DNA from: Glutinoglossum americanum
Taxonomy: Eukaryota > Ascomycota > Geoglossomycetes > Geoglossales > Geoglossaceae
Length of the DNA stretch: 39,110 bases
NCBI GenBank assembly: GCA_020080175.1
Contig: JAGHQL010000218.1
Location: 1 to 39,110 of the forward strand
Direction: 5' to 3'
Made by a program: the position numbers and the translations under genes. Below are positions 3,617 to 38,986 of the stretch, in pieces (position 1 is the stretch's first letter; every line of letters starts with the position of its first letter). The notes below the pieces were generated by a model. It made no database searches. It had not been told where the DNA came from and was given only the letters and a program-made list of their open reading frames with translations.

Positions 3617-4534
3617 TTTAAAGGAAATCACCAGAACGCCTAGACTCGGATTGAGCTTCGCGTCTCTCTTAACAGATCTCCATTGCGCAGATGGCACACG
3701 TGTGATACAGATTGGCTGAATTCCGGCCTCACTCTTTTCCTCTCCTGGTTGTACCCTGTCGGTGAGGTCCTTGGGGATAACATTGCTGCAACAGTCAAGT
3801 TACATTCCACATATTTATCAGGGAAATATACCTCTGCGTTCTCTCCATCGTTGGTAGCTGTGTCTCGAGGACGCCTGGAAGACTCTTCGTGGCTGTTAAC
3901 CCCGGGGATAGTTCTCTATCCTCTCCTCCATTTCTGTCGTTGCTAACCAAGGCCATTTATGAAGTTTCGAGCTCTTGATACTCTAGAGATATTGCTGGCG
4001 GCGCTGGGGCATAAAATCCTTCTTGGATTTCGTAATAATGGTATACTTCATTGATGCGAAAAATGAGCCGCAAATTAACCTGGTATCTTCCGAGCGCCGC
4101 TAAAAGCGAGCGATCCGAGTTTCCGCACGGGAACCGACTGCAATAGGGATAATGACCAATCAAAGGCCTCGTTCATGCCGATGAGCGATTGGGGATGGGA
4201 TTGCCCTCGCCAATCCACAACCATCCCTGCTCTACAATAGTTATCTGCCACGTCAGTGCTGAGGCTCAATGTAGTGCATTAGGGATGTTTTGTGCACAGC
4301 GCCCTTGCCCGCGGTTAGGCAGCAGCCAACAGCATGAAGGGTCCTTCTGCACCCGTGCCCCGCAGCACACTATCTTGTTCGCTTCGCCAAAGCTTGTCTT
4401 AAATTTGGAGCACAGCATAAGGAATAGTTATGCATATTTAGAGCCTCGCCGACGCCGAGAGGGGAGCAATTCTTCGATTTACCACAACCAGTCATTGTAC
4501 GCATAGAGCATCTCATAGTTGGGCCTTACCCAGA
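3617..4534. promoter_or_regulatory. Shared divergent promoter region with CCAAT boxes
   Basis: This gap of about 918 bases separates the starts of two divergent genes, so it should carry both promoters. Two forward CCAAT pentamers are visible, at 4156-4160 (ACCAATCA context) and 4210-4214 (GCCAATCC context), roughly 325-380 bases upstream of the plus-strand ATG. CCAAT boxes are bound by the Hap/AnCF complex in filamentous fungi. No coding frame here looks real. Confidence 0.4.
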
Positions 4535-13567: not shown

Positions 13568-16212
13568 ATGAACAGCATCTCGCAGTGGAACGGTTGGTTA
13601 AGGTGGCAGGGCGGAAGTAGCTGGCGGGCTCCAACGAGAGCCAGGGGCGAGGATGCCGAAAATGCGTCCCTTAAACGCCAGAGTGATTTCTCCGATGAAG
13701 AAATCATGCTCAGGAAGCTTAATAGCACTGCAGGTTACGACAATAGGCCATTGTTTGGATACTATTATCGCCCCGAACAACCGAGACTCGGCAAGTGGAG
13801 TCGCTACCGGCGCGCTATTGTGGTAGCGACTGCGTGTCTTGTCTTCCTGGTCTTGCGTCCACTGAGCTTGATGATTGGACCTTCGGGATGGGGCATTTCG
13901 AACATTGGAATTTTCGGAGGCTCTGGAAGTTGCACAGGGGCTCTTTGTGCGGCCGATCCCGATGAGTTCTTGATTGGCGTGGGAAAGGCAGATATTACTG
14001 GGTAGGCGTGCATGCTCGCTCTATCTCGAAACAGAAACTTACTTACCTACTACCTTGTGCGCTAGTCCCGTAGTAGAGCTAAATTTGATGGGTTATGCCA
14101 ATACCGCTCAAACTGGCACAGGCCTCCGACAGCGACTCTACTCGCGAGCGTTCATAATAGGCAGTGTGGACAACCCACAGGACAGGTTTGTCTACGTGGT
14201 ACTGGACGCGCAATCGTCCGACACCAATATACGATATGGAATTCTTTCTGGTCTCGCCGAGCTTAGCTCAGAGTATTCCGTGTATGGGCAGAAGAATGTT
14301 GCAGTGACGGGGACTCATAACCACGCGGGGCCGGGGGCGTGGGCGAACTATTTGCTTCTACAGATTACGAGTTTGGGGTTCGACAAGCAGAGCTATCGTG
14401 CTATTGTTGATGGTGCTGTGTTGTCGATCAAACGGGCGCATGAAAGCCTCACACCCGGACATCTTACCTTCGGATATACAAAAATCGACGATGCAAATAT
14501 CAACCGAAGTCCGTCGGCGTATCTTGCAAATCCCGCAGCAGAAAGAGCCAGGTACTCCACAGATGTCGACAAGGATATGACCCTGTTGAGATTTCAGCGT
14601 GCTTCCGATAAGAAAAATATCGGAGTGCTGACATGGTTCCCAGTCCACGGCACGTCACTACTGGGGAACAACACGATCGTAGCTGCCGATAACAAGGGTG
14701 TGGCTGCGTGGTTATTTGAGCAGAGCGTTGGGGATGGCATCGTCGCGGGATTCTCGCAGTCAAACGTCGGGGATTCATCACCGAATATTAAAGGCGCTTG
14801 GTGTGAGGACGGTAGCGGGAGTCCTTGCAGCTTTGAGCAGAGCCTGTGTGGTGGGAAGGCTTCACCGTGTCATGGACAAGGTCCTTTTACCGCACAATTC
14901 GACAACGGTGCAAAGAGTTGCTTCGAAATAGGACGAAGGCAGTTCTCCGGAGCGTTGAAAATCTACGTCAGTCAATACCCTTTCACACTTGGTGTGCTCA
15001 GTCGCTAACGGCCAACGCAGAACTCGCTCGATGCCACCGGCATGCCACTCAGGGGCGGCGTTGTCCGATACGCACACAGCTCCCAAGACATGTCTAACTT
15101 CGCTTTCACCCACCCCAACGGCACCCCCGTCTCCACTTGTCCCGCCGCCCTCGGGTACTCCTTTGCAGCCGGCACCACCGACGGCCCCGGCCCCTTCGAT
15201 TTCACGCAAGGCCAATCCGGGAACCCAACTTCTAACCCCCTCTGGGGACTGGTCGGTGGGGCTCTCAAGGACCCCAGCCCCGAGCAAAGGGCCTGTCATG
15301 CCCCCAAACCCATTCTCTTGGACGTTGGCGAGATTACGTGGCCCTACCTATGGTCCCCGAATATTGTGGATGTACAGCTCTTGCGCGCGGGTCAGATGAT
15401 CTTTATTATCGGTCCAGGTGAGGTGACGACAATGTCGGGACGGAGGTGGAAAGAGGCGATTGCGGATGCAGCGGCAGCGAATCCGCAGGTGATCGATGTG
15501 GGGCTTTCGCCGTTGGTGGTGCTGGGCGGACCCGGGAACACATACACGCACTATATCGCCACAGAAGAGGAATACGGAGTTCAGAGATATGAAGGCGCAT
15601 CGACACTCTACGGTCCGCACACGCTCAATGCTTACATCAACCTTACCGTCACGTATGTTTCGCACCTCTCGTCTGCGGCGCGGTCGTCCCCGCCGGCGGG
15701 TCCGCTGCCTCCAAATAATGTAGATGTCTCTCTAAGCTTTATTCCGGGTGTCGTATACGATAATCCTCCGATTGGCAAATCTTTTGGGCAGGTCTTGAAA
15801 GATGTCAGCCACGCTACACCATATCACAGAGGGGACGTTGTGAGCGCGACATTCCAGGGCGCAAACCCACGGAACAATCTCCGGCTGGAGGGCACATATG
15901 CCGCTGTTGAGAAAAAACTGGACGACAGATGGTTCGTGGAAAGGGACGACGCGGATTGGAGTCTACTATATCAGTGGAGGAAGGTGGATGGGCTCTTGGG
16001 AACCAGCGAGGTTACACTCACTTGGGAGATTGATGAAAATGCGGACCGTAAGTTGGAGCTTGAATACCATTTTAATCGTCGCGGATATGTATACTGATCT
16101 AGGCGATACAGCGGGGACATATAGGTTCCGATACTACGGCGATGCGAAGCAGCCTTTCACGGGCAAGATTAACGCATTTGTGGGCACGAGCAACACCTTT
16201 ACTATTGTTTGA
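13568..16212 (+). CDS. Neutral (non-lysosomal-type) ceramidase, N-terminally membrane anchored
   Basis: Four exons: 13568-14001, 14066-14966, 15021-16047 and 16112-16212, with introns of 64, 54 and 64 nt, encoding about 820 residues. The family cleaves the N-acyl bond of ceramide to give sphingosine and a fatty acid. Family residues are visible: GTHNHAGPGAW (about 227-237, zinc His), WFPVHGTSL (about 335-343, second zinc His), NVGDSSPN (about 379-386, nucleophile Ser), PGEVTTMSGRR (zinc Glu) and GNTYTHYIATEEEY (zinc Tyr). The last exon restores PGTYRFRYYGD and a beta-rich immunoglobulin-like end. In place of a cleavable signal peptide, about 80 hydrophilic residues precede one hydrophobic segment (IVVATACLVFLVL, about 80-100). 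This suggests a type II membrane anchor with the catalytic domain in the secretory lumen or outside. The start is the first ATG after an A-rich leader. Confidence 0.92.
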
Positions 16213-17109: not shown

Positions 17110-19215
17110 TTAAGATCCAGCGGGAGGTAGGATCTGTGCCTGCCACTCGTTCAGGAAGCGGCCGTTTGGGTCGAGCTCGTCGCGGATGGTACGCCAGCGC
17201 TCGTACTGGGCGTACATGCCGCGCATCTGATCCGCGGAGGGATCACGCATCAGCTGGCCCCAGTGGGTACGGACCTCATTACCGAACCTCTGCCGGAGCG
17301 CCTCCTCATACCCGTCAACCATCTCCTGTGCGTGCTTGTTTGCGCCGGTGAAGATAAACTCGAAACTACAGTAGTCCTTGGGGCAGCCAAGCATGGCGGG
17401 GATTCCACGCATAAACCGCATCGAGAACGGTGCGGTCTCATATATCTTGCGCCTGGCGAACTGAGCGGCGACGTCCCGGATGACGTCGAGTGCTTGGAGG
17501 TAATTATCGTTCTCGAGGGGAACGTAGATGCTGCCAGCAAAAGCCGGAATCTCGCTCGTGCCGTGGCCGAGATTGAAGACGTTGAAGCTGCGATCGACGT
17601 AGGCATCATCAACCAGAGAGTTCAGTGCATTGTCGAGGAGCCATGGAGTCGCCTGCGGGGCAATCTTGATGATGGTATTGACGGTCCACACAAGGAGGTC
17701 GCGTAAATTTTCCTGAATCCACACGGGGATCGCGGGGCGAGTGAAGCGCGCTCCTAGCTCGACGGTGCGGACCAAGTCACGGCCAGGCGGTTCAAATGTA
17801 AATCTATCGTCATTGTCGACAACAATCGGATGGCGGGAGGTTATGATCACCAGGTCGCTGTACGGGTTGAGCACGAACTCGAGATAGTAGGCGCTGAATG
17901 GATGAGTTGCAAAACCACCATCCTTGCCATCGGAGATCCTTGGCTGCTCCTTTGCCAGGTCAGCTGGCTTGCCTCTGGCACCTGAAAGCTCGTGGATCTT
18001 TCCATCCCTAAGTTTCTCCCTCAACTCGTTAATCTTGACGGTAGTACGTATCTCATTCAGGTGGAAAGCATCGGTGACCTCCAGGACATAAGACTGAACA
18101 ACACCCATGGTGCCGATGTTGATAAGAGCCGCGTAGTAATAGTCGTCTTCCTGGATCAGCCGGATCTCGGGACGCTCCACCGTAAGTCTCCCAGGATCTG
18201 TGATTCCGCTGCCGGGCTCGATCCGGACCAGGCTTCCATCAGTGCAGACGAGATCGATGCTAACGATCATGTCCGCCAGTGGGCCGCGCGAGGGGACGGA
18301 ACTGTGAGTGCCAGTGGGGAACACACCACCGATGGTCTGCTGGTCCCAGCCACCGAGTGCGGGAAGCGACTTTTTGTGCATCCACAGAAAGCGGTTCGCT
18401 TCACGGAGGTGATGACCAGATCCACAGCGCACCAGATTGCCGAGACGATCGCCAAGATCGTGGCGATAGACATTGGGTTCTTCGGTGACGAATGCAAACC
18501 GCTTCATGCATTCCGGAGCGACGTACACATCGGTCGACAAGGCTGCCCTGGACCACGAGTGTCGTGCACCGCCAGCCTTCACCTTGGCTCCAGGAATGTT
18601 CTGATCGACCCATGCGAGAGCCGTTGGCAACTCATCGAGCGTCGGACTGAGGGTGATGCGTGGTAGCCAAGTAAGATTTTTGCCGTGGTTGACCTCTTCC
18701 ACGGGAACGAGGGCATTCACCCACGGCGCGCTGACCGACGGTTCCTCGGTGGGCCGGGCGGTCTCTCTCAATTGATAGCCGTGTTCCTCACGAACAATAT
18801 GACTGATAACCTTACGGCTATCAACAATGTAGGTCTGTGGAGCAAGTGGGTTGCCACCCAGAGGAAGCCCGCCGATGCGAAGTTCGCTATAGCGGACGCT
18901 GGAGATCGTCTTTACGACGTACTCGAAAGCGACCCATTCGGAGAGTGCCCTCAATACCAGAAAAACATTCTTTCCTCGGCGACGGCCCACCTCATCGAGG
19001 GCGCGTCCGAGAGTCTCGAACCGTAACTCGGTAGTTTCGGCTTGAAGGGTCTTTTCGGCTAGCACTTTGGGCTTCCAGTGAAGGGCAGGCGGGTCCACCG
19101 TGTCATGCAGATGCTCATATCGCTCCCTTAGTCGCAGGTCGCCGGGAGGGGCTGCAGGCGGTGCGGGGCTGCTGGCAGGCGCTTCGGTGGTGTGGGGGTC
19201 CGTTTCGGTTTCCAT
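17110..19215 (-). CDS. FAD-linked sugar-1,4-lactone-oxidase-like protein (ALO family)
   Basis: Single exon of 701 residues from the ATG at 19215; the frame stays open a few codons further upstream without another ATG. From about residue 180 it reads as a FAD-binding PCMH domain. It has KAGGARHSWS (His about 219, the usual place of covalent flavin attachment), LPALGGWDQQTIGG, then FPTGTHSS. The C-terminal half matches the D-arabinono-1,4-lactone oxidase domain, including CSFEFIF and THWGQLM near the end (the usual motif is HWGK) and LDPNGRFLNEW. Yeast ALO makes erythroascorbate in mitochondria; here the substrate is unknown. Two features set it apart: an N-terminal extension of about 170 residues with no recognised domain and a Pro/Ala-rich start, and no obvious transmembrane helix. 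Codon use is GC-rich relative to the flanking repeats. Confidence 0.85.
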   Translation of the reverse strand: METETDPHTTEAPASSPAPPAAPPGDLRLRERYEHLHDTVDPPALHWKPKVLAEKTLQAETTELRFETLGRALDEVGRRRGKNVFLVLRALSEWVAFEYVVKTISSVRYSELRIGGLPLGGNPLAPQTYIVDSRKVISHIVREEHGYQLRETARPTEEPSVSAPWVNALVPVEEVNHGKNLTWLPRITLSPTLDELPTALAWVDQNIPGAKVKAGGARHSWSRAALSTDVYVAPECMKRFAFVTEEPNVYRHDLGDRLGNLVRCGSGHHLREANRFLWMHKKSLPALGGWDQQTIGGVFPTGTHSSVPSRGPLADMIVSIDLVCTDGSLVRIEPGSGITDPGRLTVERPEIRLIQEDDYYYAALINIGTMGVVQSYVLEVTDAFHLNEIRTTVKINELREKLRDGKIHELSGARGKPADLAKEQPRISDGKDGGFATHPFSAYYLEFVLNPYSDLVIITSRHPIVVDNDDRFTFEPPGRDLVRTVELGARFTRPAIPVWIQENLRDLLVWTVNTIIKIAPQATPWLLDNALNSLVDDAYVDRSFNVFNLGHGTSEIPAFAGSIYVPLENDNYLQALDVIRDVAAQFARRKIYETAPFSMRFMRGIPAMLGCPKDYCSFEFIFTGANKHAQEMVDGYEEALRQRFGNEVRTHWGQLMRDPSADQMRGMYAQYERWRTIRDELDPNGRFLNEWQAQILPPAGS

Positions 19216-20571
19216 TCCAACCCGTTTAAGATGCCACAACAACTCAAGAAGCTATTGATGCGCTAAGAACGTAGTTTTACAGCATTCAGAGCTTTAATCC
19301 GTAAAACAGATAGGACAAGGGAGGAGGATGGAGTATTTATGAAGGGAGGACAGCTCCCAAGAGCTCTGTCAAAAACGCGCGTCAAGCAGCTTCTGATTTA
19401 CCCATCGCAGCGGGTGTCCAGCTGACCACTCGTCCGCCACTGCCAAAGTTGGTTGGGATCAACGTCCGCCCATCCAATCGATAGGTGGTATTCTTCTCAA
19501 TCACTGCATCAAGATTCTTCAGCTCCGAACAGCATTGCTAGCTGAACCGAAAGTGATGGGGATGCTTCTAAGATACAGACGGCCATCTGTAACATTTAAA
19601 ATAAATTTAAATTTACAAAAAACCCATCTTTTTTATATTTTTAACATTATAAAAGGTAAAATTTTTCAATATATGGTAATTCAAAGAAGAGAATAAAAAA
19701 AGAAGTTAAGGTTTAAAAGTCTTTACGACAAAAGTGGTCGCTGTTTTAGGGAAAAGAGTAACTGCCACTAATTGTCCAAGTTAGGCTAGCCAACGCTTAA
19801 GCCCAAATCATCCCCCAATAGGCATCATCCCCTAAACCAAATCTTAGGCACTTGTTCGGCTTTGTTGAGGTCCTTCGTAGACTCTTAGTTAGGAATTAAT
19901 CGAGTAATACTTTTACTCTTTATTAGTCCGTGAATCCTGAACCTGAATGGGACTGAAGGCGGGGTAATCATGAAGCATGGACGTGCCCTCACACCTCGTC
20001 TATTTTGATCCTGAAGCATTGGTAGTGGGAATCATCTCGTTCCTGCGGCGAAAGCACTGGCTCTCCATGCGAAGACATTTTTTCTAGAGGTATATAATGT
20101 ATGTGGTGATTGGAGTCAAAACTTCTAGTCCCTCTGTCGCAGCAAGCATCTTCACTGGGATAATTGCTCCATTTGGCGCGTTCCGGGTTATTCGGTCTGG
20201 ATGAAGACACCTAACAAGCTCCGCGGGAAAAGACCTCATGCAGAGCCCACAAGAAGCAGAAGGCAAGAGGCAGCTGTAGCGAACGTCGAGCGACAAAGCG
20301 GCAGGTGGTAGGCGGCCTTATCGCTGTTGAATAATAAACTATGCTTTAAATAGCGGGCCTCACGTTAATTACTACCTATGGTTGGTTATTAGTTCCCGGC
20401 TCTGATCCTAATTAGGTTCGGAGACTTGGAAACCCCCCTCCCCACTAGCGCTTGATATATTCCCTATGTGATGATTTCCTCGAGCAAGGGCCAACTATCA
20501 GTCATAGACCAAGAATAACATTAAATGACTTAAAGGTTATCATTTACACTCTCTCATGCGACAGTTTAGGT
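19216..20571. other. Intergenic, partly very AT-rich
   Basis: No gene is seen. Positions about 19595-19720 are strongly AT-rich, with runs such as AAATAAATTTAAATTTA. A transposon-like block follows at about 19725-19880. The oxidase promoter should lie nearest 19216; the 3' end of the polymerase-helicase gene is at 20572. Confidence 0.5.
19725..19880 (+). repeat. Possible DNA-transposon terminus
   Basis: The block includes ACAAAAGTGGTCGCTG, then GGGAAAAGAGTAACTGCC, then AATTGTCC and AAATCATCCCCC. From memory this recalls the non-coding ends of pogo/Fot1-type elements in ascomycetes. No transposase and no inverted partner were found, so it is at most a remnant. The family call is a weak inference. 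Confidence 0.22.
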
Positions 20572-23500
20572 TTAAGTAGCATTCTCAGTCAGTGTTCTTT
20601 CTCTGGTTCCCTTTTGCCTCCCCACTTGTCTCTTCCCATTCACTCTCGCGTTTGCCTCTCCCGTGTCTTCAATAACATCAACCTCCATGTCCACCAACCT
20701 GCCCAATAGACGCTTCCAAACTCTTGTACTCTCCAGTTCTGCCTCTCCTTTCGTCAGTGTGTCACGGTCCCCGATGACGATCACGGCGACCCTTGCCCTC
20801 GTCAGAGCGACATTCATACGCCGCATGTCTTTCAAAAAACCGATCTCACGATGGGCATTGCACCGCACGGTGTCGAAGATTATGATGTCTGATTCACGGC
20901 CCTGGAAACCGTCGATGCTAGAAACTTCTATACCCTTGAAGCCGGAGAGGGTAGCTTTGAGGAGCTCTGCCTGGCGACTGTAAGGTGTGAGTACAGCGAT
21001 AGACTGTTGAGCTATGGATGGCTGTTGCAACGATGTTGGCGGAGACGATGAAGATGGGGATATAGCCGGTGCCGTACAGAGCTTCTTGCAGATTACACGG
21101 CAGAGCTCTGCTTGGCCTCGGTTGCTCTTCGACTTTTGGCCCATGTCCTCGGCCGCCGAGCACTGTGCAAAGACCATCCGTGCTTGGCTGACGATCCCAC
21201 CGGTTCTTACCTTTGGCCATGGGAATTCAGACAGGGGAAATGGTCTCTTGTCGGGTGCAACGCCCGTACGAAGTTTGCCTTCATAAAATTCAGCTGAACT
21301 AAACTCGCAGACATCCTCATGCATGCGGTATTGCGTATCCAGCATGACTTTGCAGAAGATTGCATCAAGCGCTGGTGGCTGATGCTGTCGTGTGTAAAGC
21401 CTTTCAAACAGAGAGACGTCATACTGCTGCAAGATGGCATGTTGCTGGACCGTTGCACGTAGTTGCACGTGGTCACCGACTAGGATGACCTTCTGGCAGC
21501 CCTTGACGAGGGGCACTAGAGAAGCAGGCTCTGTCTGCTGCGAGGCCTCATCAATGATGACAACGCCAAACTTCTCCTCTCGAAGGAGGCCAAGCCCGGC
21601 GCCCACACAGGTAGTGAAGATTAATCGACACTCGCTGATGCGTTTCTGAGCTTTCTTTCTGCCACTCATGTCTGTGCTTAGTTCCCTCCCGACCATTGCG
21701 TCGCAGGTGTACATCTTCAGGTCATCTGATACTTTTCTAACCTAGTCAGACCAATAAGTAAATACATATCAGCGAGCACAGCACGTGGCGGCCGTGGGGA
21801 ACTCACATCTGTGGAGACACGAAGAGGAGCATGGTGTTCTCCGGCCCTTTGAGCCTCCTTCAAGAATTTACGCATGACGTTATCGACAGCATTATGCGTT
21901 GGCGCAGACACCATAATTCTCTCTTCTAGCTCCGAGGCCAGAAGCTCCCGCAAGATCGCCACAATAGTATACGTCTTTCCGGTTCCAGGCGGGCCCCACA
22001 TACACGTTAGCGGATAGGATATTGAGGCATGGACAGCTCTATTCTGGCTGGCGTTCAGATCATCCCTAGGCATATATTTTGGAGAAACTGATTCGTGACG
22101 ACAGTCAGATAGTCCTAGAATCTGTTGGTGGACCCCACAACACTGTCCTAACTGAGTGGCAAAGGTATAGGCTGCATCAAGCATCGTTTTGCTGGTTACG
22201 AAGGATCCACAATTGTCGAGCCGCCAGGAACAGTCCTCGACGAAGCTCGGAGGGGGATGGAGACAGCGGATCTTGGCGGAGCCTTGTTCGTATGCCACGA
22301 TTTGGGCATCCATCGAGTAAGCACGCGTAGTCACAGAATTGACAGGTGAGCTTGCCGTGGTTAATCTAACATGATCCCCCTGCGCTAACGCGCCAGTGGT
22401 GGGGGCATCGATCCTTAGCCTACATTGAAACGTCGAGGAATTGGAGTCTCTCTCTAGAAATTTTAGATTCAACAAGTCTCTCCTGTGATGTTGAGATTGG
22501 TTGGCCTCGTCGATGTGATCTAAAGCTATCCCAATCGCGCTCCGAACGGCATGCCGTACCACCGTTGGCCGCTCTGTGAGAATTCTGGTCGTCTGGGTCT
22601 CGAGGCAATCGAGAAATAGATCTAAGGCAATTTCAGGTGTGCGGACGGTCAGAGATATTAGCTCCACAAGTTCGAAGAAGGATGTCATTGACATTTGCTG
22701 AACTTGGGACAGCACTTCCTTGAAAGGTCGGATAGCGAACTCCTGCATTTCATTTGCAGAGAGAATAATTGCCCGAAGTATTTTCGGCGCTGAGCCCCGA
22801 AGCGCATCGCGCACATCAGGTGGCAACCCATCCCAATTGCCCATTCGAGCAAAGTTAATAGCTAGATAAGGGGCAGACGAGAGAAAATTAATCATTTTCA
22901 AGATTATAGTCGGCGGCTTTGCCCAGGCGAAACAATCATCGATAGATTTCAAGAGGTAGTCGAAGACGTGCTGAAGCAGTCCTGATCCATCCCTTTCAAG
23001 CATCCACTGAAATACGGAGGCAAATTGCGCTTCTGATCGAACTTCCTTGAGCGCGGCGAAATCCCTATGCTTGGCAATTCTCACTAGATGCTCTGGTTCT
23101 GAAGACCAATTAACATCGTCCAGCTTTGGGATGCCATATTCACGAGGGATTTGTTCGAAGAGTGGCATTCGCACTTCCGTATCAATGTGGTGGAGCCAGA
23201 GATCGAGGGTTTGCATCGCCTCGTCGTCCCTATTGCTGATGACGTAGATTTCCTGGAGAATCGTAAGTTATGTCTTAAGTGCCCTTCTCAAATAACTCAC
23301 AGCTGCTAGAATTCCATTCTTATTGACAAGCCCAATATGTTTTTGCAATGGCTTACTGAATTTTTGCAACGCAATGCTCACTTTGCAGTCTTGATTCAGA
23401 CCACTGTCTAAAGTTTTTTGCCTCTCCCTTCTTTTGTCACCAGTGTTTTTGATGTTCCGATAGCTACTCTCGTCAGATGCACCCCGCCCCATGTACACCC

Positions 23501-26088
23501 ACGTGTTCTGTCGGTGTGTTTCGTACAGCTGGAACACGCCTCCATCACAGTACAAACGATAGTTCATCTTCGTTGAGACCACTCGGCGTTGCGACGTCTC
23601 ATCTCCCTGCGAGTGTGGAAAAGCGAAGAGAAGCACTTTGTTATCGACTAGGCACTCTTGGCGTTTCTCGACTTTTCGAGGCACATAGATAGCCACGGTG
23701 AGCCGGTCGTTCACATGGATGATGATCAACTTACGGTGGAAAAGTTCAAGAGTTCTCGAGACGACGTCGAGGAAGGTTCCAAGTCGATCTCTGGTGGAGT
23801 CGAAGATACGTTTCCATCGCAACCCCTGGTAGTCGAGCTTGAAGGAACGAAGCTCGGCTGGTCTAATGAGGTTTGACTGTAATAGAGCGTTCATGACTAG
23901 ATTTGGGGTTCCATCAGCTGGAGGAAGTTGGTTCAATGTCCAGGCTTTCTCCTGCACGCTGAGACGGTTGAAGTCGAAAAGGTGCAGAAAATCTGCAAGA
24001 TCGGCTTTATTTTTCAGACACCAGCGATAAGTTAGTTTAACTAGTTCGAACTCGGACATGGCAACATCGTCCCGGCAGAGGAGAAGCTCCATAGCATCGA
24101 AGGAATAGCCATCGTAGCTTTGGCTACTCCCCCGGCAACTCTTAATGGAAAATTCTGCAGCCTCGTGAAGGGTGTCGAGAATAAAAGGGGGAGCTTCTGA
24201 GGGGAGTCGCGGACAATCTTCCAGTACAGGAGGGACTTTGATGCGGTTTCCGTCGACACAGGTGGAGAAGAGGCGATTTAGTTCTTGACACTCTGCACTC
24301 ATCGGTCCCTTCAATCTCGCCCAGTCGAGATAGAGATTTTTCACTCGTCCCAAGGATGCGTTTGTATATCTAGCGAAGTACTCAAGTCTGTCACTGTCGG
24401 TTATCTCGGTAAACTTGACCGGTTCTTTGGCCCCTGGATATTGTGCGGGCTCAGAGAGGATTGTGGGTACGAGGTCAGGATCCCAACACACAAAGACTAA
24501 TTATACGAGAGTAGGTTAGCTTTAGTTCTTCGTTCTAGTGGATTGCATTTTTGGAAAGGGTGAAGGCTCACATCTATCGCCATCCAGATCACCCCCAGAC
24601 ATCAAGTCTGCACTTGGCCTCCTCCCTCGCGTGGGGAACACGATACAATCAACTAGGTGTGCGAGTTCCTGTCTTTCCACAGCCTTGAATTTTTGCAAGT
24701 CTCCAGGATGCAGGCAGGGGTTCCTCGTCACGAGAACCTCCATCCCTTTCAAGATGTTCGGTTGTCCGTCTCCCTCCACAGTGACCCTGACAGCGCATTC
24801 TCCCTCCTTTAAAACGTTCCATGAGTCACAAACTCCAAACAACAGCCTCGACTGGGGAATTAAGATACGGCATCGCTGCTCTTCCCTCTTGTTCAACGTC
24901 CTGTCATATTCTGAATTTACCAGACTGATGACAGTAGGCTTGACCGATTCAAGACCCTCCAGTAAAACTTTCTCAGCGAGTTCGGGCCGATTCATCCAGG
25001 TTAAAAAACGGAATCCAGTTCGTGGATCTACGGTAGCCCATTCAAGATATTCGAAGTGTTCTTGCTGTTTTCGTAGAAGGACTTCCTCTTGGATGCCGAG
25101 GGCATGCAAGAGCAGGATTATTTCATCATTTAGATAGCCAAAACAGTATGGCTAACTCATAGTTGATCGATCAGCGGTGCAGGCGATGTCGAGGGATAAA
25201 AAGTCTCTATAAGCTAAAACACACCTTTGAGTAATCCACCACCGAGAATGAAAAATCATCCCCCTCACTAAATTTCTTCATAGACCCCCTCAACTTCAAC
25301 CAAACTTGTCCCTTCAGGGCCGGATCCAGCATAACTACTCCTTTGTAACCCCTATATCGTATTTGATACACAGAAGGTGTGTATCTGACATTTCGAAAGG
25401 CTATCCGTACTTTTTGGACCAACAGGTTAGCCAAGGAGTTTGAGATTAGGCCGCAGCCGTCAGTAAAAATGTAATCCTTTGTCAGAACATCAGGGACATC
25501 TTCACACCGGTCAGGCTTAACCTCAGCGGCCATCTGCGCAGTGGAGAAAAGGAGTCCGATTCGTTTTGCCTTCTTCGCGACAGTCTTCATTTTGGAGAAG
25601 TCTCCCAAGGCGTTCACTTTGAGCGCGATGTCTGCCTTGGAGTCGGCGAATAGCACACAGGATCTCGACTTCAACTGGCTGTTGCTGTGACCGTAGAAGT
25701 TGTAGTGAACACCGTTCAAATCTATTCCCGATTTGAGGAGTCGAACGATATAGTCGGCGGATTCCCTGGGAGTGGCCAGTTTTTTCATGGTGCCATCCCC
25801 ACCCGGAGACGGTAGCGCAATACGTAGACGGAAATCGGCAAAGGATATAAGAATGAATCGGTCTAGCGGATCAGATGTCATGGCCCTATTGGAGGAGGCA
25901 CGCTCGAAGCGTAAGACGATATTCTGCTTCACATTGTTTGATACAACTGCCACCAGCTTGACCATGCCTTGGCCGTTGACAGAGGATGCGTGAGGGAGGT
26001 TGGGGACCCGATAACACCATTGCCAATCATCCAGCTGAATGGAATTTTGGAGCGTGTAGCAAAACCCTTTGATATTTTTGGGCGCCAT
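20572..26088 (-). CDS. RNA-dependent RNA polymerase fused to an Upf1-like SF1 RNA helicase
   Basis: Five exons join in frame: 26088-25225, 25151-24572, 24496-23301, 23252-21807 and 21741-20572 (introns 73, 75, 48 and 65 nt, all GT..AG), giving about 1751 residues. Residues 1-880 are a cellular RdRP. They contain YNFYGHSNSQLKSRSCVLF, TDGCGLIS, QIRYRGYKGVV and, across intron 1, VVDYSK-PYCFGYLND. The catalytic loop GGDLDGDRFFVCWDP (about 472-486) spans intron 2. Residues about 1290-1690 are an SF1 helicase: I GPPGTGKT, Ia APTHNAVDNV, II DEAS, III GDHVQL, IV LDTQYRMH, V SIDGFQGRESD, VI VALTRAR. The linking intron (23300-23253, GTGAGT..CCAG) joins NGILAA to EIYVISNRDDEAM with no stop, so I read one protein. 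An in-frame TAA lies three codons before the chosen ATG, so the protein begins close to the polymerase core unless an upstream exon joins inside exon 1. Expected role: double-stranded RNA synthesis with built-in unwinding in RNA silencing. Confidence 0.88.
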
Positions 26089-27873
26089 TTTTTATCTCTG
26101 AGGGACCAGTGAAGGAGGAGGAAGGAGGACATCTACTCAACGCACGAAATCGAGTGGGTATATCTCGAGTAATGGGTTGAGAGGATTTCAAACCATGATC
26201 ATGAAATAGAATGACGTTGATGATGCCCCATGTAGAGGACGACGAGAGACTTCTGTAACGGAACGCCAGGGCCTGCCGGCTGGGTTTGCTGTCGTAGCAA
26301 TACAGAAAGTTGGCGAGCCTGTTTCGACCCCCGCCTTCTGGACTGTAGTAAGCGACGTTGGCAAAGGCATCAACAAGTAGCGCCGAAACCCTCGTTTTTC
26401 GGGGACTATTTTACTGACGTGTCGTATTACCCCATGCAAGAAAAAGGCTTTCGGGTTTTCTGACTCCAAAGCTAGACAGCATAAGAGAGGGAGCCAGAAC
26501 CAGAGAAGGCACTCACTACTAGAGTCCGCACTCGATGTTCGTTATGCTCGATTCAAGCAACCTCTTACACGGTTCCAGGTATACTAGATCACCACCTACC
26601 CTCCTATGGCGACCATTCCCCCAATTCGGGCATAGCCACCAACAGCAACATAAAATTCATGAATGAAACCAGCCCCAATACTAGATCTTGACCTCCAGTA
26701 TCAGCGCCTTCCTCCAAAAACGGCTCCAGCCCAGTATTGGCTCCCCTCATAGATACCGTTCAAAAACCAAAGATATCCCTAGTCCCTAATCCCTTGAAAG
26801 ACCTCTATCAAAATGTTAGAGCGGGGTAGGAAGCCAACTATCAAACCAAGGGATGCGAAACGCGAGCGGCTCGTGCTGGCAAATCCGAATTCAAAAATTT
26901 GGAAGCGGCAGCCCAAGCAGCAGGGAGACCGAATCCTCGAGGGTAATTAGGTAACACACGCTAATTTATTTCATTGCCCTTTTTGGGAGCCGGTGAGATG
27001 GATTGGTATGCAGCCTTACGTGAGTGGCGGGCGTTGGATCCTCCTATTGCTCCGTAGTGAACTGATCACGTGAGCCATCGCACTCGGCTCGATTAAGCCT
27101 CTAGCAAGGCCAGTGAGCGGCAAGCTGTGCAGTGTCGTGCATGGTAAATGAGGGGTCGCATCCCGAGTAAAGCAACAACGCAACATCGATATCGACAGCT
27201 AGCTTACAGGTTTCCTAATCATAGTGAAAAAAACGATCCGCGCTGTCCCCACTATTGAAAGCCCTGGCCTGGCTTTCAATTAGCTAATCAGAATACGGCA
27301 CACATACATTACTTCAAAGTTGCCCATTGAGTGATGATGGAGGCATGAGGGCGGGAGGCGATGGAAGTATGCTGGATGAGTGCGAAATGAGGTGGTTGAT
27401 GGATGTGCAACCTAGTTTCTTGCCCGAGCCCCCCCCCCGGACAATGCAGCCGGAGCGGATGACACGTTTGTATTTGGTGTGTGGAGTTGGGGATATCGAC
27501 CCTCCTCCGTACACGACCCTCTACAGAAGGAATGTAGATGACACTGCGGAAGGTCCTAGCTTTTCCCCGCCAATGCCGACAGAATCGTATCGCCCGGCCC
27601 TCCGCACATGGACCCTCTGAACCCAGATTGGTTGGGCCTGGCGAATCAATTAGCGTTGATAAGCGTTTCGGACGCCCACATATGCCACTTCCCACTCATG
27701 GGGCCATTTCCTGCTCATGGGGCCGTTTCTGGACTTGGAGTTCAATTTCCAAACTTTGAACGGTAGCTGTGGACATAGCTTCAACTCTTTTGAATTGCCT
27801 CTCCTTGTTGACGCCTTGCCAAGCAAGAGCAGAAAGGTTTGAAACCGCATGCAATCAAGCCGCCAGACGGAAG
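26089..27873. promoter_or_regulatory. Divergent intergenic region upstream of RdRP-helicase and nucleoside transporter
   Basis: About 1.8 kb between two gene starts, so both promoters should lie here. Visible items are a CACGTG E-box-like site near 27066-27071 (GATCACGTGAG), a perfect hairpin at 27254-27280, and a run of C around 27430-27440. A minus-strand open stretch at about 26188-26469 could be an upstream exon of the polymerase gene, but I recognise no family motif in it. Confidence 0.4.
27254..27280. repeat. Perfect inverted repeat (hairpin)
   Basis: ATTGAAAGCC and GGCTTTCAAT form a perfect 10-bp inverted repeat around a 7-nt spacer. It sits about 600 bases upstream of the transporter start. 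It could be a binding site for a dimeric regulator or chance; nothing else supports a role. Confidence 0.4.
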
Positions 27874-30027
27874 ATGTCAGAGTCGAGCGCACATATCACC
27901 GGGGCCCAACATGGCCACAATGTCTCAAGTCAGCATCACGTAGAGCCCGATTCCGATTTGGCTCTAAATCCGTCTCGGGGACATCACCACCAGCACATCC
28001 ACCATGGTGCGCATGCTGAAGAAGGCCGGGCGGATGAGGTTATCCATTCAGAAGGGACGACATCCGAGAGATCGACTACCCCAGGCACAGATCCTCAAGG
28101 CCACCACAGACGCCATCATCTGGAACAGGCTGGATTTGCTTATGGTGACGCTGAGCAAGGGGGAAATGGAAGCCCTACTCAGGGAGAGGAAGAGGATACG
28201 CAGAGTCACAGTTTCTCACGATTCTATGTGCATTGGCGTATTTTTTTCCACATCTTCATCTTCCTTCTATTTACGGGGTATGTTGCGCCTTAGATTCTAC
28301 CCACAATCGGCTTCCCTTCACAGCAGTAGCCTTGGAAGTCGTTCGGTTCATTCCTACACATCGTTTTCCCCGCCGAAGGTTGTTCTTTCATAATCCCAGC
28401 GTTTTGCAACCACTCTATGATCATCTAACGCTTGTAACAGCTGGTGGATTGCAGGCCTCATCCTTCACAGGAAGGACTTGGGCTGGGTAGTTCCGTTCCT
28501 CCTCTGGTTCGCCATCTCCCTTCGCCTGCTCTTCTTCCACGTTCCCATCATGATCCTTACAAAACCTATGCACTGGGTCTGGAACAATACGGGTGTCCGC
28601 TTCGCCGCTACGATCCCTGAAAAGCTCAAGATCCCTCTATCCGCACTCGTAGTGATAGCAGTCATCCTCATCGGATCTTTCGTTAGCGAAGAAGCTGAAG
28701 ACAATACTCGTCCCAACCGAGCTGTCAGCCTCTTCGGACTAGTAGTCCTTATCGCAGCCCTCTATGCTACATCCCACAGCCGCAAGGACATTAAATGGCA
28801 CACTGTAATCGTGGGCATGTTAGTTCAATTCATCATCGCCCTCTTCGTCCTCCGAACAGGTGTTGGCTACAACATCTTCACCTTCATCTCCGGCCTCGCA
28901 CGCGACCTCCTCGGTTTCGCCGGGCAAGGCACATCCTTCCTCACCGCCCCCACAGTCCCCAAGTTAGGCTGGTTCCTTACCGCCGTCATCCCGGCCATTA
29001 TCTTCTTCGTCTCCCTCGTCCAGCTCCTATACCACAATGGCGTCCTCCAGTGGCTCATCGGCAAGTTTGCCGTCTTTTTCTTCTGGTCCATGCGTGTCTC
29101 CGGGGCGGAAGCCGTCGTCGCAGCTGCCTCCCCCTTCGTTGGCCAAGGCGAAAGCGCCATGCTCATCCGCCCTTTCGTCGCCCACCTCACAGCGGCCGAG
29201 CTCCACCAAGTAATGTGCTCCGGCTTCGCCACCATCTCTGGCTCTGTCCTTGTCGCCTACATCGGTCTCGGGGTCAACCCTCAAGCTCTCATATCTTCCT
29301 GCGTCATGTCCATCCCCGCCTCCCTCGCCATCTCTAAGCTCCGCTACCCTGAAACCGAAGGAACCCTCACAGCCGGACGCGTAGTCATCCCCGATGACGA
29401 CGAGCACCGCGCCGCAAACTCCCTCCACGCCCTCGCCAGCGGTGCCTGGCTCGGCCTCAAGATCGGAGGCATGATCGTCGCAGTCGTTCTGTGCGTCATA
29501 TCGCTCCTCGGCCTAGCAGACGGTCTCCTGACGTGGTGGGGTTACTACCTCAACATCGACTCCCCACCTCTGACAATCCAGCTCATTGTTGGCTATATTT
29601 GCTACCCAATCGCCTTCCTCCTCGGTGTATCCCAAAACGACGATCTCTTCAAAGTCGCTCAGTTAATCGGCATCAAACTCATTACTGCATGTAACAACCT
29701 TTACACCTTCAATGTGCCCATCCTAACGAACTCTAGAACGAATTCGTAGCCTACACCTCCCTCCAAACCAATCCCGCCTATGCCGCGCTCTCCCCCCGCT
29801 CCCGCCTAATCGCCACCTATGCCCTCTGCGGCTTTGCCAACATCAGTGCTCTCGGCATCCAAATTGGCGTCTTGTCTCAAATAGCACCCGGACGCGCTAG
29901 TGATGTGAGTAGATTGGCGGTTAGCGCGTTGATCTCGGGGGCGTTGTCTACGCTTACCAGTGCGTGTATTGCTGGTCTGCTTGTGACGGACCAGAGGGCG
30001 CTTTTCACGCCAACGGCAGCACCGTAG
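27874..30027 (+). CDS. Concentrative nucleoside transporter (CNT/NupC family)
   Basis: Three exons: 27874-28277, 28441-29686 and 29737-30027, about 646 residues. The family moves nucleosides across the plasma membrane with a coupled cation gradient. A long hydrophilic, His-rich N-terminus (about 115 residues, clusters such as HHHQHIHHG) comes before the first membrane segment (IFFHIFIFLLF). Then follow WWIAGL, LLWFAISLRLLFF, a gate region (AEAVVAAASPFVGQGESAML) and the C-terminal transport domain (MCSGFATISGSVLVAYIG). NEFVAYTSL begins exon 3, matching the NEFVAY signature. Intron 1 is 163 nt, longer than the others here. Intron 2 (29687-29736) appears to be GC..AG: the nearby GT donor gives a stop, while GCATGT joins KLIT to NEFVAY in frame, with a CTAAC branch point. 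The 5' ATG is the first in frame before the His-rich region. Confidence 0.88.
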
Positions 30028-30918
30028 TGAGCTGGGAAGCAGGGTGAAGGGGAGACAAGGGGGGAGCTAGTGTACTATGGCTTTTCTGGGGAAGAAAATG
30101 TCAGGAGATATGGTAATGAGGGATGCAAATTACACCTCGAACAGAGAAATGTCCAGTCGTTCGTACACCGTGCAGATCCTGTTGCCGCTGCAGTATGCGG
30201 CACTGGGTTAGACAGCGTTTTCATGAGCTGCAATGTTAAGGCGCGGTAGCCACCCTTTATTAACACTGGTGATGGCCACAGCAGAATTTGCTAGAGTTTC
30301 GACTAACCCGTTGTCATATGCTAAACCACCGCTTTCACATTCAGCATGTGGGAGGAGTCTATGACAGCGTCATGTCAACATGTGAAAAAGGGGTAATGAC
30401 ATCATGATATCAGCCATGACGGTGGTGATTGCGTGTTCGTGCTTGCGTGTTTTGGCATATGACAGGCAACTAACAGAATGCTCTAGGAGCATTCTGCTCT
30501 AGGATCATAAATATCACCTTAGAGCCCTTTTACATAGTCTTTTCGAAATACTTCGGTCCATCAATGGTGCCTACATACACTTCATACTTCACATTATTAC
30601 ATGACCCTCACCCCTTCCCATATCCATCCATAACCTACAACACAACCGACAAGAAATAACACCGCCGATAACAAGTGCAAACCCCGCCTTTAAATGTCTC
30701 TAGCAATAAATAGGACCAGGTCCCTTGCAGGGACTTTGTCACGACTGGAGACACCTACATAAGCTTTTATCCGATCAGAAGGGTGAAAGAGCTGGCGACA
30801 TCCTTCTCGTGAAACCCCAGAGAACATTATGACAAACAACTTGAATCATCGCGATTGCCGAACCCGGTGCTGACCACTGCACATTTATCTCAGAACAACT
30901 CGGTCAACAATCATTCAA
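30028..30918. other. Intergenic, palindrome-bearing, no gene seen
   Basis: No gene is found. The stretch contains a palindrome at 30474-30496 (listed separately) and a leader before the small NTPase gene. No tRNA or clear promoter element is visible. Confidence 0.5.
30474..30496. repeat. Perfect palindrome CAGAATGCTC-TAG-GAGCATTCTG
   Basis: Ten-base arms around a 3-nt centre match perfectly. A second GCTCTAGGA follows at once, making a partial direct repeat. The core (ATGCTC-NNG-GAGCAT) also occurs at 39006-39020. It may be the terminus or footprint of a mobile element, or a cruciform-prone repeat. Confidence 0.5.
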
Positions 30919-31590
30919 ATGGCACCAATGCCAGGTCCAAGTCCCAATACACAGCTTCGATCGATATATGTAGTTGGAGCCCCATCTTCTGGCAAAACAA
31001 CTCTCATTACTGCCCTGAGATCGCACCCCCATCTACGGAGTGCGCGATTCGTTACTGAAGTGGCGCGAACAGTTCTTCGTAATCAAAAATTCCAGACCTC
31101 AGATATACGGGCATCGCCTACTGCGTCGTTGGAGCTACAACGCGCTATTCTGGAAGCACAGCTCCAGGCTGAAATGTCGTCCTCCAGCCCGTCTGTGTCG
31201 GGCAGCCCCAATGCGCCGCAAGTTCCGAGAGCAGAATCTACACTAATCGTATCCGATCGCTCGGGGATCGATCCTATCGTCTTCGCCGCGATGTACGGTC
31301 CGCCAGGCGGTGCGAGATCACTTCTGGAGTCAGGCACCTGGCACAATCTACGTTCCCAAATGCGGACCTCGCTGGTGGTTTTGTGCGAGCCGGTTGAAGA
31401 ATGGCTAAGAGGTGATGGAGTGAGGTTGATGCCTGAGAGGAAGGATGAGGAAGGCTGGTCACAATTGCACACGTTATTCTGCGAGACGCTGGAGAGAGAG
31501 AAAGTGAAATATATCATCTTGCCGGAACATGTTCGGAGCATCTTGGACAGGGTGGATTTCGTCCTACGGGCCTGGGCGGATCAGGTTTGA
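30919..31590 (+). CDS. Small P-loop NTPase, AAA_28 (NadR/Ttd14-like) family
   Basis: Single exon of 223 residues. Walker A is GAPSSGKTT (about residues 20-28) directly after strand SIYVVG. A later strand and DRSGIDPIVFA (about 113-123) match the second acidic/arginine motif of the AAA_28 group, which resembles nucleotide and deoxynucleotide kinases. A Ser-rich insert (about 86-100) precedes it. The end is WADQV. There is no membrane segment, so it is likely cytosolic; substrate and pathway are unknown. The ATG has AAATGGC context and no intron is needed. Confidence 0.85.
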   Translation: MAPMPGPSPNTQLRSIYVVGAPSSGKTTLITALRSHPHLRSARFVTEVARTVLRNQKFQTSDIRASPTASLELQRAILEAQLQAEMSSSSPSVSGSPNAPQVPRAESTLIVSDRSGIDPIVFAAMYGPPGGARSLLESGTWHNLRSQMRTSLVVLCEPVEEWLRGDGVRLMPERKDEEGWSQLHTLFCETLEREKVKYIILPEHVRSILDRVDFVLRAWADQV

Positions 31591-36662: not shown

Positions 36663-36907
36663 GTTCAATCCCCGGGGGCCAAGCTGCCGACCTGACGCGT
36701 TTGCCTTAGTTGCTCTGAGTCATCCAGTACTTCTCCAGCTAAAAACCCGTCAAGTGCCTCCCTGCTTCATAAACCCTCCACCCTACATTCCACATTAGCA
36801 CTCTAAATATATCCCAGCAAATTTCGAGCTGAGAATGAGCCCAGTTCCAAAATAAAGAACGTCCCTTCCAAGTTCTAGCGTCGGCCGATATTAGTTTGGA
36901 TCAACAG

Positions 36908-38986
36908 ATGGCCGTTCCACCTGGCCAAACCTACGGATACTCTCCTCTACCCTCTGAAACTTCCATTCGTCTCCTCCAAATACTTTCGGGAGCCGATGAA
37001 CCGATACGATGCTCTCTTGAAGTTGCCGACCTTGGCGATGAACCCCTCTACGATTGCCTGTCTTACACGTGGGGTGACCCGCTGTACCACGAACTCTCAG
37101 GGCCACAGGACATCAGAAGAACATCCAACGAGCGCAACAACCTAATCACTTGCGATGGATTAGTCCTCTGTATCACTGAGAATCTCCGTGAAGCGCTTCT
37201 GCAATTAAGCAGGGATGCATCTTCGTCGGCAGCTGGCCGTGGTCAATACCAGAGGCAACGCCTTATCTGGATTGATGCGGTGTGCATTGACCAAGGAAAC
37301 GTGCCCGAGCGAAACTCCCAAGTTGCGATGATGAACAAGATTTATCAGGCAGCTAAAACAGTCGTCGTATGGCTCGGAATAGAGGACGTGCACACAAGGG
37401 CCGCAATTGAGGTGATGAATCGACTCTCGTCTATCCCGCCGGAAAAACTCAAAGTCGAGCTACCCCCGGATCTTGATGATTCTGAAGTGTATCGTGCTCT
37501 TGGCATTCCATACGTTGAGCCGCAGCAGTGGTTGGATTACGCTGCGTTCCTTCAACGGTCCTGGTTTAGCCGGGTATGGGTTATACAGGAGATATTCGTT
37601 GCGCGCAATATCGTTGTATTCTGTGGTTCCAATGTTCTTCTCTGGTCTGATATTTCAACCAGCTCGCAGGTTCTCAGGGAAACGCAATTGGGTGAGTTGT
37701 TGACAAGCGTAGCCACAACAGCTGTCAATCCGTCTTGGGTCAAGTCGTCTGAGACGTCTACAACATATGTTGGCAATACCCTCACCAATCCGTTCATTTT
37801 TGAAAACATGAGGAAGAAGGCCACATCGCTCAACCTCGAAAAACTCTTGGTGTACGGCAGATACTTCAATGCAGCGGATGATAGAGACCGTGTTTTCGCG
37901 CTCTTGGGGATGCGGGAACAGTCTCTGGTGCATAGGGTACCCTATCATATACAGCCAGACTACAACTTCAACACTCAACAAGTCTATACAAAAGCCTCCT
38001 GGGCCACTATATGCGAAATGGCGGATCTTAATCTTTTTTCCCTCGTTGAAGACGCCTCTTTCCGAAGATTGCAAAATCTTCCTTCCTGGGTCCCTGATTA
38101 TAGCGTGACACCCCAAACCCACCCTCTGAGTGGCAGTCCAAGAGCCGCAGCGGGTGAGGGACGTTGGAATGCTAGCGACGGATTAAGGTGGGAGGTGCCA
38201 GTGCAGATGAATTTGCTACTACTGCCAGTGGAAGGCATTCGTTTCGACACTATTATTGAGTTCGCTGCGACGGCAGCAGAGATTACGGATCTGCACCAGA
38301 TGGAAACTCTGCTGGATCTCCTAGCACATTATCCTCAATCCCGTTACCCTAATGGAGGCACGCCTACCGAAGCTTTCTGGAGAACCCTAATCAAGGACAC
38401 ATTCCGTGGGCGACTAGCAGGCGAAGAAGCTCGTGGCGCATTTCCATTGTTCATCGCACTTCGCGTTTGGGAACTGAAAGAAGCACTAGGGAGCTTACGC
38501 GACGTCATCAAGTACTCTGAACCCAAGCCGAGCCCCCCCGATCAGCTAACCAAGGATCTTACTAAGCTCTCAGACGTATACTCTCAAACGAAAGCCGCTG
38601 TTTCAGACCTTTCTACCAGATATACAGATGGAATCATACCAGATTGGAACACTATTGAACGCATGATCGAAATCGGGCAGGATGAAGACTCACCTGAGAA
38701 GAAGGATCTGGACAGGGATTACGATCATATCGCTGAGAGCTTTCGGGTCGCTTACAGCGGCAGACGGCTCTTCAGGACAGAGCGCAACTACATTGGCATT
38801 ACGGCTCAGTCACTCCAGGAAGGCGATACTGTCTGGGTCCTGGCCGGTGCGACCGTGCCTACAGTCTTAAGGCGTCTACAGAATGGAAATTGGAAGCTTG
38901 TTGGCGAGGCGTACGTTCATGGTATCATGAACGGAGAAGCTGTGAGAGGTGATGGTGTCAAGTCAGAGCAGATTCTCTTGGAGTAA
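36908..38986 (+). CDS. HET-domain protein (heterokaryon incompatibility type)
   Basis: Single intact exon of 692 residues. The HET domain spans about residues 48-240: YDCLSYTWGDP (about 48-58), RLIWIDAVCIDQGN (about 118-131), ERNSQVAMMNKIYQAAK, then VVVWLG and SWFSRVWVIQEIF (about 219-231). Later blocks also fit the family: DDRDRVFALLGM, LPSWVPDYS, VEGIRFDTI and the C-terminal YVHGIMNGEAV. HET proteins trigger regulated cell death in incompatible hyphal fusions; partners are unknown. I start at the ATG at 36908, since the frame further upstream lacks an ATG. No extra repeat domain (WD, ankyrin, NACHT) is attached. Members of this family are numerous and fast-evolving, and a relic of another lies at 8771. 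Confidence 0.93.
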   Translation: MAVPPGQTYGYSPLPSETSIRLLQILSGADEPIRCSLEVADLGDEPLYDCLSYTWGDPLYHELSGPQDIRRTSNERNNLITCDGLVLCITENLREALLQLSRDASSSAAGRGQYQRQRLIWIDAVCIDQGNVPERNSQVAMMNKIYQAAKTVVVWLGIEDVHTRAAIEVMNRLSSIPPEKLKVELPPDLDDSEVYRALGIPYVEPQQWLDYAAFLQRSWFSRVWVIQEIFVARNIVVFCGSNVLLWSDISTSSQVLRETQLGELLTSVATTAVNPSWVKSSETSTTYVGNTLTNPFIFENMRKKATSLNLEKLLVYGRYFNAADDRDRVFALLGMREQSLVHRVPYHIQPDYNFNTQQVYTKASWATICEMADLNLFSLVEDASFRRLQNLPSWVPDYSVTPQTHPLSGSPRAAAGEGRWNASDGLRWEVPVQMNLLLLPVEGIRFDTIIEFAATAAEITDLHQMETLLDLLAHYPQSRYPNGGTPTEAFWRTLIKDTFRGRLAGEEARGAFPLFIALRVWELKEALGSLRDVIKYSEPKPSPPDQLTKDLTKLSDVYSQTKAAVSDLSTRYTDGIIPDWNTIERMIEIGQDEDSPEKKDLDRDYDHIAESFRVAYSGRRLFRTERNYIGITAQSLQEGDTVWVLAGATVPTVLRRLQNGNWKLVGEAYVHGIMNGEAVRGDGVKSEQILLE

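Follow-up and report, generated by a model that had tools for sequence, protein, structure and literature searches.

A predicted fungal protein with a silencing-type RNA-dependent RNA polymerase and a UPF1-like helicase in one chain

Introduction

Whether an RNA-silencing polymerase and an RNA motor can be encoded as one protein, and what the motor would then do for the polymerase, are questions raised by a gene of the fungus Glutinoglossum americanum. The gene lies on the minus strand of contig JAGHQL010000218.1 (C133 in our numbering), whose entire 39,110 bases form the window analyzed here; the source genome comprises 25.77 Mb in 317 contigs. RNA-dependent RNA polymerases (RdRPs) are known to pair with helicases as separate proteins, as in Rdp1 and Hrr1 (RDRC) and SAD-1 and SAD-3. 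The fusion is like these pairs in bringing an RdRP together with a superfamily 1 (SF1) helicase, and unlike them in its single chain and in the kind of helicase, which in the pairs is of the ZNFX1 kind.

On sequence evidence, the five exons of the gene specify one predicted protein carrying a silencing-type RdRP and a UPF1-like helicase. We consider it likely that this is an RdRP of the type of FgRdRp5 (FGSG_09076) from Fusarium graminearum, with clearing or reeling in of the template as the leading mechanism. The architecture has already been published and deleted in that species, and proteins of this kind are little studied.

A single spliceable frame

The predicted gene and its parts are as follows (lengths in nucleotides, nt).

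20572..26088, minus strand: complete coding gene, from the ATG at 26088 to the stop codon at 20574-20572, five exons, 1,751 amino acids plus stop (spliced frame, Pfam, codon bias)
25225..26088, minus strand: exon 1, 864 nt, start of the RdRP domain (spliced frame and Pfam)
25152..25224, minus strand: intron 1, 73 nt, GTGTGT..TAG
24572..25151, minus strand: exon 2, 580 nt, with the catalytic SGGDLDGD at 24599-24576 (spliced frame and motif)
24497..24571, minus strand: intron 2, 75 nt, GTGAGC..TAG, with a GCTAAC branch-like site
23301..24496, minus strand: exon 3, 1,196 nt, in which the RdRP domain ends and the linker starts (spliced frame and Pfam)
23253..23300, minus strand: intron 3, 48 nt, GTGAGT..CAG, phase 0
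21807..23252, minus strand: exon 4, 1,446 nt, single open frame, linker and helicase motifs I and Ia
21742..21806, minus strand: intron 4, 65 nt, GTGAGT..TAG
20572..21741, minus strand: exon 5, 1,170 nt, carrying helicase motifs II to VI and the stop codon
24183..25869, minus strand: Pfam RdRP domain (PF05183), residues 74-586, split by introns 1 and 2 (E=2.6e-119)
22059..24182, minus strand: linker, residues 587-1278, split by intron 3 (genome search and predicted model)
20764..22058, minus strand: UPF1-like SF1 helicase core, residues ~1279-1688, split by intron 4 (AAA_11 in two stretches, and AAA_12)

The initial annotation had proposed that polymerase and helicase exons on one strand are joined through a 48-nt intron. 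This was confirmed in the sequence, with intron 3 at 23300-23253 as claimed and a single frame of 1,751 residues. The motifs it had named (QIRYRGYKGVV, DLDGD, GPPGTGKT, DEAS, QYRMH, and VALTRAR) were all found, and the domain search of the joined protein that it had suggested recovered RdRP, AAA_11, and AAA_12 by Pfam in one chain. All four introns have donors reading GTGTGT or GTGAGY, acceptors reading TAG or CAG, and at least one CTNAY branch-like site. The start ATG lies two codons downstream of an in-frame stop, in the context AAAATGGC. In each of the five exons, codon bias scored higher for the annotated frame than for either alternative sense frame (exon scores 0.105-0.166); in exon 2, one antisense frame scored slightly higher (0.136 vs 0.105), and for intron 3, with 16 codons, the measure is uninformative because the stretch is too short.

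Intron 3 falls between residues 880 and 881 of the protein, about 290 residues beyond the point where the RdRP domain ends and about 400 ahead of the helicase, and therefore not at a domain border. Its length is divisible by three, and its retention would read VSYLRRALKT and then a stop (ten codons), so that the retained form would yield a polymerase-only protein of about 890 residues.

The polymerase half

The RdRP domain scored 400 bits against a curated cut-off of 23.8. The motif QIRYRGYKGVV occupies residues 242-252 and SGGDLDGD residues 473-480; the DxDGD catalytic loop is intact, and SGGDLDGD aligns with the loops of RDR2 and of paralogues from the same genome. By domain and catalytic loop, the polymerase half is a eukaryotic RNA-silencing RdRP. 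Among solved structures, the best match was plant RDR2 (210.6 bits), with QDE-1 at 79.7 bits. Over aligned columns, two plant RDR2 chains were 34.0% and 35.0% identical to the fusion's polymerase, the RdRPs encoded on contigs C190 and C81 of the same genome 31.0% and 31.3%, and a further pair on C306 and C285 25.2% and 27.3%. By eye, this last pair is called QDE-1-like, because a SGGDYDGD loop is common to both and to QDE-1; its two members share 52% identity over 409 columns.

In a seven-row tree, a tiny sample whose rows did not include FgRdRp5, SAD-1, or RRP-3, the fusion grouped with the C190 and C81 proteins and the two plant RDR2 chains (100/100), and, given the QDE-1-like pair as outgroup, those four stood together apart from the fusion (95/94). 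The aligned stretch starts at residue 453 of RDR2 and residue 113 of the fusion, indicating that a long N-terminal region is missing in the fusion, and a Pfam search found the PH-like fungal domain PF25358 in the C81 protein and not in the fusion. A missed N-terminal exon was considered and rejected: the N-terminal parts of the C190 and C81 RdRPs matched nothing credible in 25400-28400 (the best E was 0.63), sense-strand codon bias upstream of the gene was weak (no higher than 0.06, compared with 0.105-0.166 for the exons), and in FgRdRp5 the helicase lies equally far from the N-terminus, a further argument against such an exon. One antisense frame of 26701-27300 reached a codon-bias score of 0.1.

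The helicase half and the linker

The C-terminal half matches the Pfam models AAA_12 (residues 1469-1688, E=5e-50), AAA_11 (E=1.7e-40), and AAA_19 (1283-1456), the models other than AAA_12 starting at residues 1279-1283. Its motifs are intact, with GPPGTGKT at 1300-1307, DEAS from 1426, QYRMH at 1499-1503, and VALTRAR at 1673-1679. Against solved structures, NAM7 (180 bits) and UPF1 (165) were followed by structure 8ftm, which we take to be a Sen1-like chain (136), and by SMUBP-2 (133), SEN1 (124), DNA2 (109), and ZNFX1 (83.5). Within the genome, where helicases were named from accessory domains or from their best match in the PDB, identity over common columns was 38.3% to UPF1 (371 columns), 35.2% to SEN1, 33.6% to DNA2, 28.8% to the helicase at C282:93 kb, and 25.2% to the ZNFX1-like protein on C51. 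By bit score and identity, the fused helicase is thus nearest to UPF1, and the description of it as Upf1-like in the initial annotation was borne out, with NAM7 and UPF1 as the best solved relatives.

The likeness to UPF1 and NAM7 lies in the helicase core. The UPF2-interacting domain UPF1_Zn_bind (PF09416) and the domain UPF1_1B_dom (PF18141), both present in the UPF1 that the genome encodes on C307, were not found in the fusion at E<=0.001, and the same search did not find in it the ZNFX1 domain PF25396, which the C51 helicase carries. The parallel drawn earlier with the Hrr1 and SAD-3 pairs accordingly stands as a functional analogy and fails for the kind of helicase (38% identity to UPF1 vs 25% to the ZNFX1-like protein on C51).

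The linker had no second matching place in the source genome (one match at E<=1). AlphaFold models made from single exons, run with no alignment, had mean pLDDT values of 41 (exon 4) and 37 (exon 3); the exon 4 model, of such low confidence that it serves as a lead only, suggests helices at about 881-1136 followed by strands.

Known RdRP-helicase fusions

FgRdRp5 was described as carrying C-terminal DEAD-like helicase and AAA domains and as closer to a plant RdRP-like protein (PMC4515635); a later study gave DEXDc at 1277-1478 and AAA (PF13087) at 1475-1677, and placed the protein on a separate branch of fungal RdRPs (PMC11237814). As in the fusion, an RdRP is followed by a DEAD-like helicase and then by AAA_12, in one chain and with similar spacing. 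Three of the four domain ends compared lie within 11 residues of those in the fusion, and the fourth (1478 vs 1456, from two different domain models) lies within 22. In the 2024 study, deletion of the gene lowered ascospore discharge to 47.6% of wild type and 21-25-nt small-RNA reads with 5′-U by about 32%, complemented strains were wild-type-like in discharge, and FgRdRp5 was concluded to contribute to exonic small interfering RNA (siRNA) and to sexual spore maturation (PMC11237814). The expectation in the initial annotation that the architecture might be recorded but not studied therefore did not hold, as FgRdRp5, with the same architecture, was deleted in two studies and had a sexual-stage and small-RNA phenotype in the second. 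A search of the PubMed Central literature, in the portions retrieved, found no test of the helicase half of any FgRdRp5-type protein. A review lists FgRdRp5 as a predicted target of hypovirus-derived siRNAs (PMC6657619).

Other relatives by architecture are more scattered. FFUJ_03638 of Fusarium fujikuroi is listed, and only listed, with RdRP and ATPase domains, the latter given as AAA in a figure legend (PMC11130915). BL02069 of the lancelet Branchiostoma lanceolatum combines a full-length RdRP domain, its catalytic site preserved, with AAA_12; it resembles the fusion in this pairing and differs in being an animal protein, for which the authors speculate on a role outside RNA interference (PMC6396948). 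RdRPs of Phytophthora and its kin (oomycetes), Dictyostelium, Hydra, and Nematostella carry DEAD-box and helicase-C domains at the amino terminus (PMC4791657), in contrast to the C-terminal UPF1-like helicase of the fusion. The FgRdRp5 type does not occur universally: the retrieved accounts of the RdRPs of Cryphonectria parasitica (four), Verticillium nonalfalfae (two), and Colletotrichum higginsianum (three) mention no helicase domain.

Proposed mechanism and alternatives

The fusion would be a silencing RdRP of the FgRdRp5 type that lacks the usual long N-terminal region and has a UPF1-like SF1 helicase attached through a long linker. The helicase would translocate on template RNA, strip it of proteins and secondary structure, and feed the strand to the polymerase, which would make double-stranded RNA (dsRNA) for Dicer. 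Counting in favor of this account as a whole are the intact motifs of both cores and the Argonaute-type (Piwi) and RNase III genes that the genome also carries. UPF1-type motors move 5′ to 3′ and the polymerase reads its template 3′ to 5′; owing to these opposite directions, a motor on the unread template would move toward the polymerase, and since it would travel toward the advancing polymerase, reeling or clearing fits better than pushing from behind. Taken as a step of its own, template clearing or reeling by the helicase, which we infer, has somewhat better than even prospects, while the likelihood stated at the outset covers the identification together with the mechanism. The rival accounts of mechanism share that identification, and the degrees of belief attached to the several readings need not add up to a whole.

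Several points weigh against the identification or the mechanism. The FgRdRp5 deletion mutants of 2015 had no phenotype under the tested conditions (PMC4515635), and the authors of the 2024 study leave the role of the helicase in siRNA production open and raise ribosomal RNA processing as well (PMC11237814). Elsewhere, FgRdRp5 is grouped with SAD1 (29% identity) instead of standing on a separate branch, and antiviral defense is mentioned for it (PMC6764512). The case for orthology between the fusion and FgRdRp5 is built on shared architecture and on the tree position published for FgRdRp5. Finally, in an eight-row helicase tree (the fusion, C307:47 kb, C249, C42, C282:93 kb, C51, and two PDB chains), branches were long and none of the five inner ones was starred, and helicase kinship was for this reason judged on identities and bit scores. 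In that tree, the SEN1 row (C249) is without part of the first motif region and the C51 row was joined from two pieces; fragmented or unassembled places matching AAA_11 or AAA_12 (C307:235 kb, C8, C282:26 kb, C273, C241, C16, C201, C237, and C255) were omitted.

Among the alternatives, the one that survives best holds that the helicase half, in the manner of UPF1 in nonsense-mediated decay, picks out aberrant messages and passes them to the polymerase, thereby linking quality control to silencing. The closeness of the helicase core to NAM7/UPF1 (180 bits vs 83.5 for ZNFX1) is in keeping with this, as is a predicted interaction network of FgRdRp5 that contains NAM7 and a nonsense-mediated decay factor (PMC11237814). 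That network is a prediction, however, and the domains PF09416 and PF18141 of the genome's own UPF1 were not found in the fusion at E<=0.001, so that we regard this account as unlikely. It is also quite improbable that the helicase acts on the product, parting the new strand from the template so that single strands are released or templates reused. An SF1 helicase with its core motifs in the polymerase chain would suit such a role, but unwinding would counter the supply of dsRNA to Dicer, and the Fusarium relative promotes siRNA.

The helicase half might instead be a fused counterpart of Hrr1 or SAD-3, so that the RDRC or meiotic silencing pair would be united in one protein. Hrr1 acts together with an RdRP and has been named the Schizosaccharomyces pombe orthologue of ZNFX-1 (PMC9276528), and SAD-3 clusters with Hrr1 (PMC5384783), which gives the idea its appeal; a helicase of this type was rejected on identity (25% to the C51 protein vs 38% to UPF1) and because PF25396, present in the C51 protein, was not found in the fusion, leaving the proposal very improbable. 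Least probable of all is that two adjacent genes were wrongly joined, a reading suggested by the very short intron 3 with its in-frame stop and rejected because the halves are separated by a spliceable 48-nt intron with usable signals in phase 0, too little for a terminator and a promoter, because codon bias goes on in exon 4, and because F. graminearum has the same architecture with near-identical residue numbers.

The fusion extends the FgRdRp5 type to another fungus and suggests that a silencing RdRP and an RNA motor act on one and the same molecule, a connection for which pairs like Rdp1 and Hrr1 are otherwise the source. It also points to a motor of the UPF1 kind and not of the Hrr1 kind, so that RdRPs may have acquired helicases from more than one family. 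A clean biochemical question follows, namely whether placing the helicase on the polymerase chain increases the amount of dsRNA made when the template is structured or bound by protein. More speculatively, the fungal FgRdRp5-type proteins and the lancelet AAA_12 RdRP might descend from one ancient RdRP-SF1 helicase fusion and form, in addition to the SAD-1, RRP-3, and QDE-1 types, a fourth lineage whose polymerase has its own template motor, with retention of intron 3 switching between helicase-bearing and polymerase-only forms; we hold this broader scenario to be doubtful.

Genomic context and searches for relatives

The source genome has at least 16 matches to PF05183 on at least six contigs, at least 20 to AAA_11 on at least 11 contigs, and at least 19 to AAA_12 on at least 12 contigs; among the matches listed, only C133 carries RdRP together with either helicase model. 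A helicase with the ZNFX1 domain, of the Hrr1 kind, is encoded separately on C51. Piwi gave seven matches on four contigs. RNase III gave five matches on three contigs, two of which have two each, the arrangement seen in Dicers.

The PF05183 match on C232 is below the curated cut-off. At C232:4431-4601 lies a 57-residue piece, 54% identical to fusion residues 237-292, in frame behind an open reading frame (ORF) that by eye resembles an enoyl-CoA hydratase. The next match to the fusion in C232:1-9000 has an E of only 0.61, and the piece is therefore probably a relic of a second gene of the FgRdRp5 type.

In the collection viral_contigs, the whole fusion protein as query gave no pattern match, and a four-row RdRP alignment matched its pattern in 34 stretches, none of them a relative. 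The collection genome_contigs gave 239 pattern matches and two relatives, both in one metagenome-assembled genome labeled Deltaproteobacteria (NYXK01000054.1 and NYXK01000162.1). The RdRP there is of fungal type, by eye like that of C81, with its frame broken as by introns, and its sequence is identical over 1,306 bases on the two contigs; it is probably fungal contamination of that record. The linker had no match in the same assembly, a result that is uninformative by the tool's own warning, and no domain search was made beside the RdRP.

The remainder of the window holds genes of varied kinds, and one of them, an ORF with a HET domain, would fit a filamentous ascomycete, as would introns of 48-75 nt and the set of RNA-silencing genes. 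On the minus strand are a DUF7025 protein (2516-3799) and a D-arabinono-lactone-oxidase-like flavin adenine dinucleotide protein (17110-19251). On the plus strand are a neutral ceramidase split over two adjoining ORFs that a single stop separates (13974-16097), a nucleoside transporter (28421-29749), an AAA_28 protein (30874-31590), and an ORF with a HET (heterokaryon incompatibility) domain (36839-38986).

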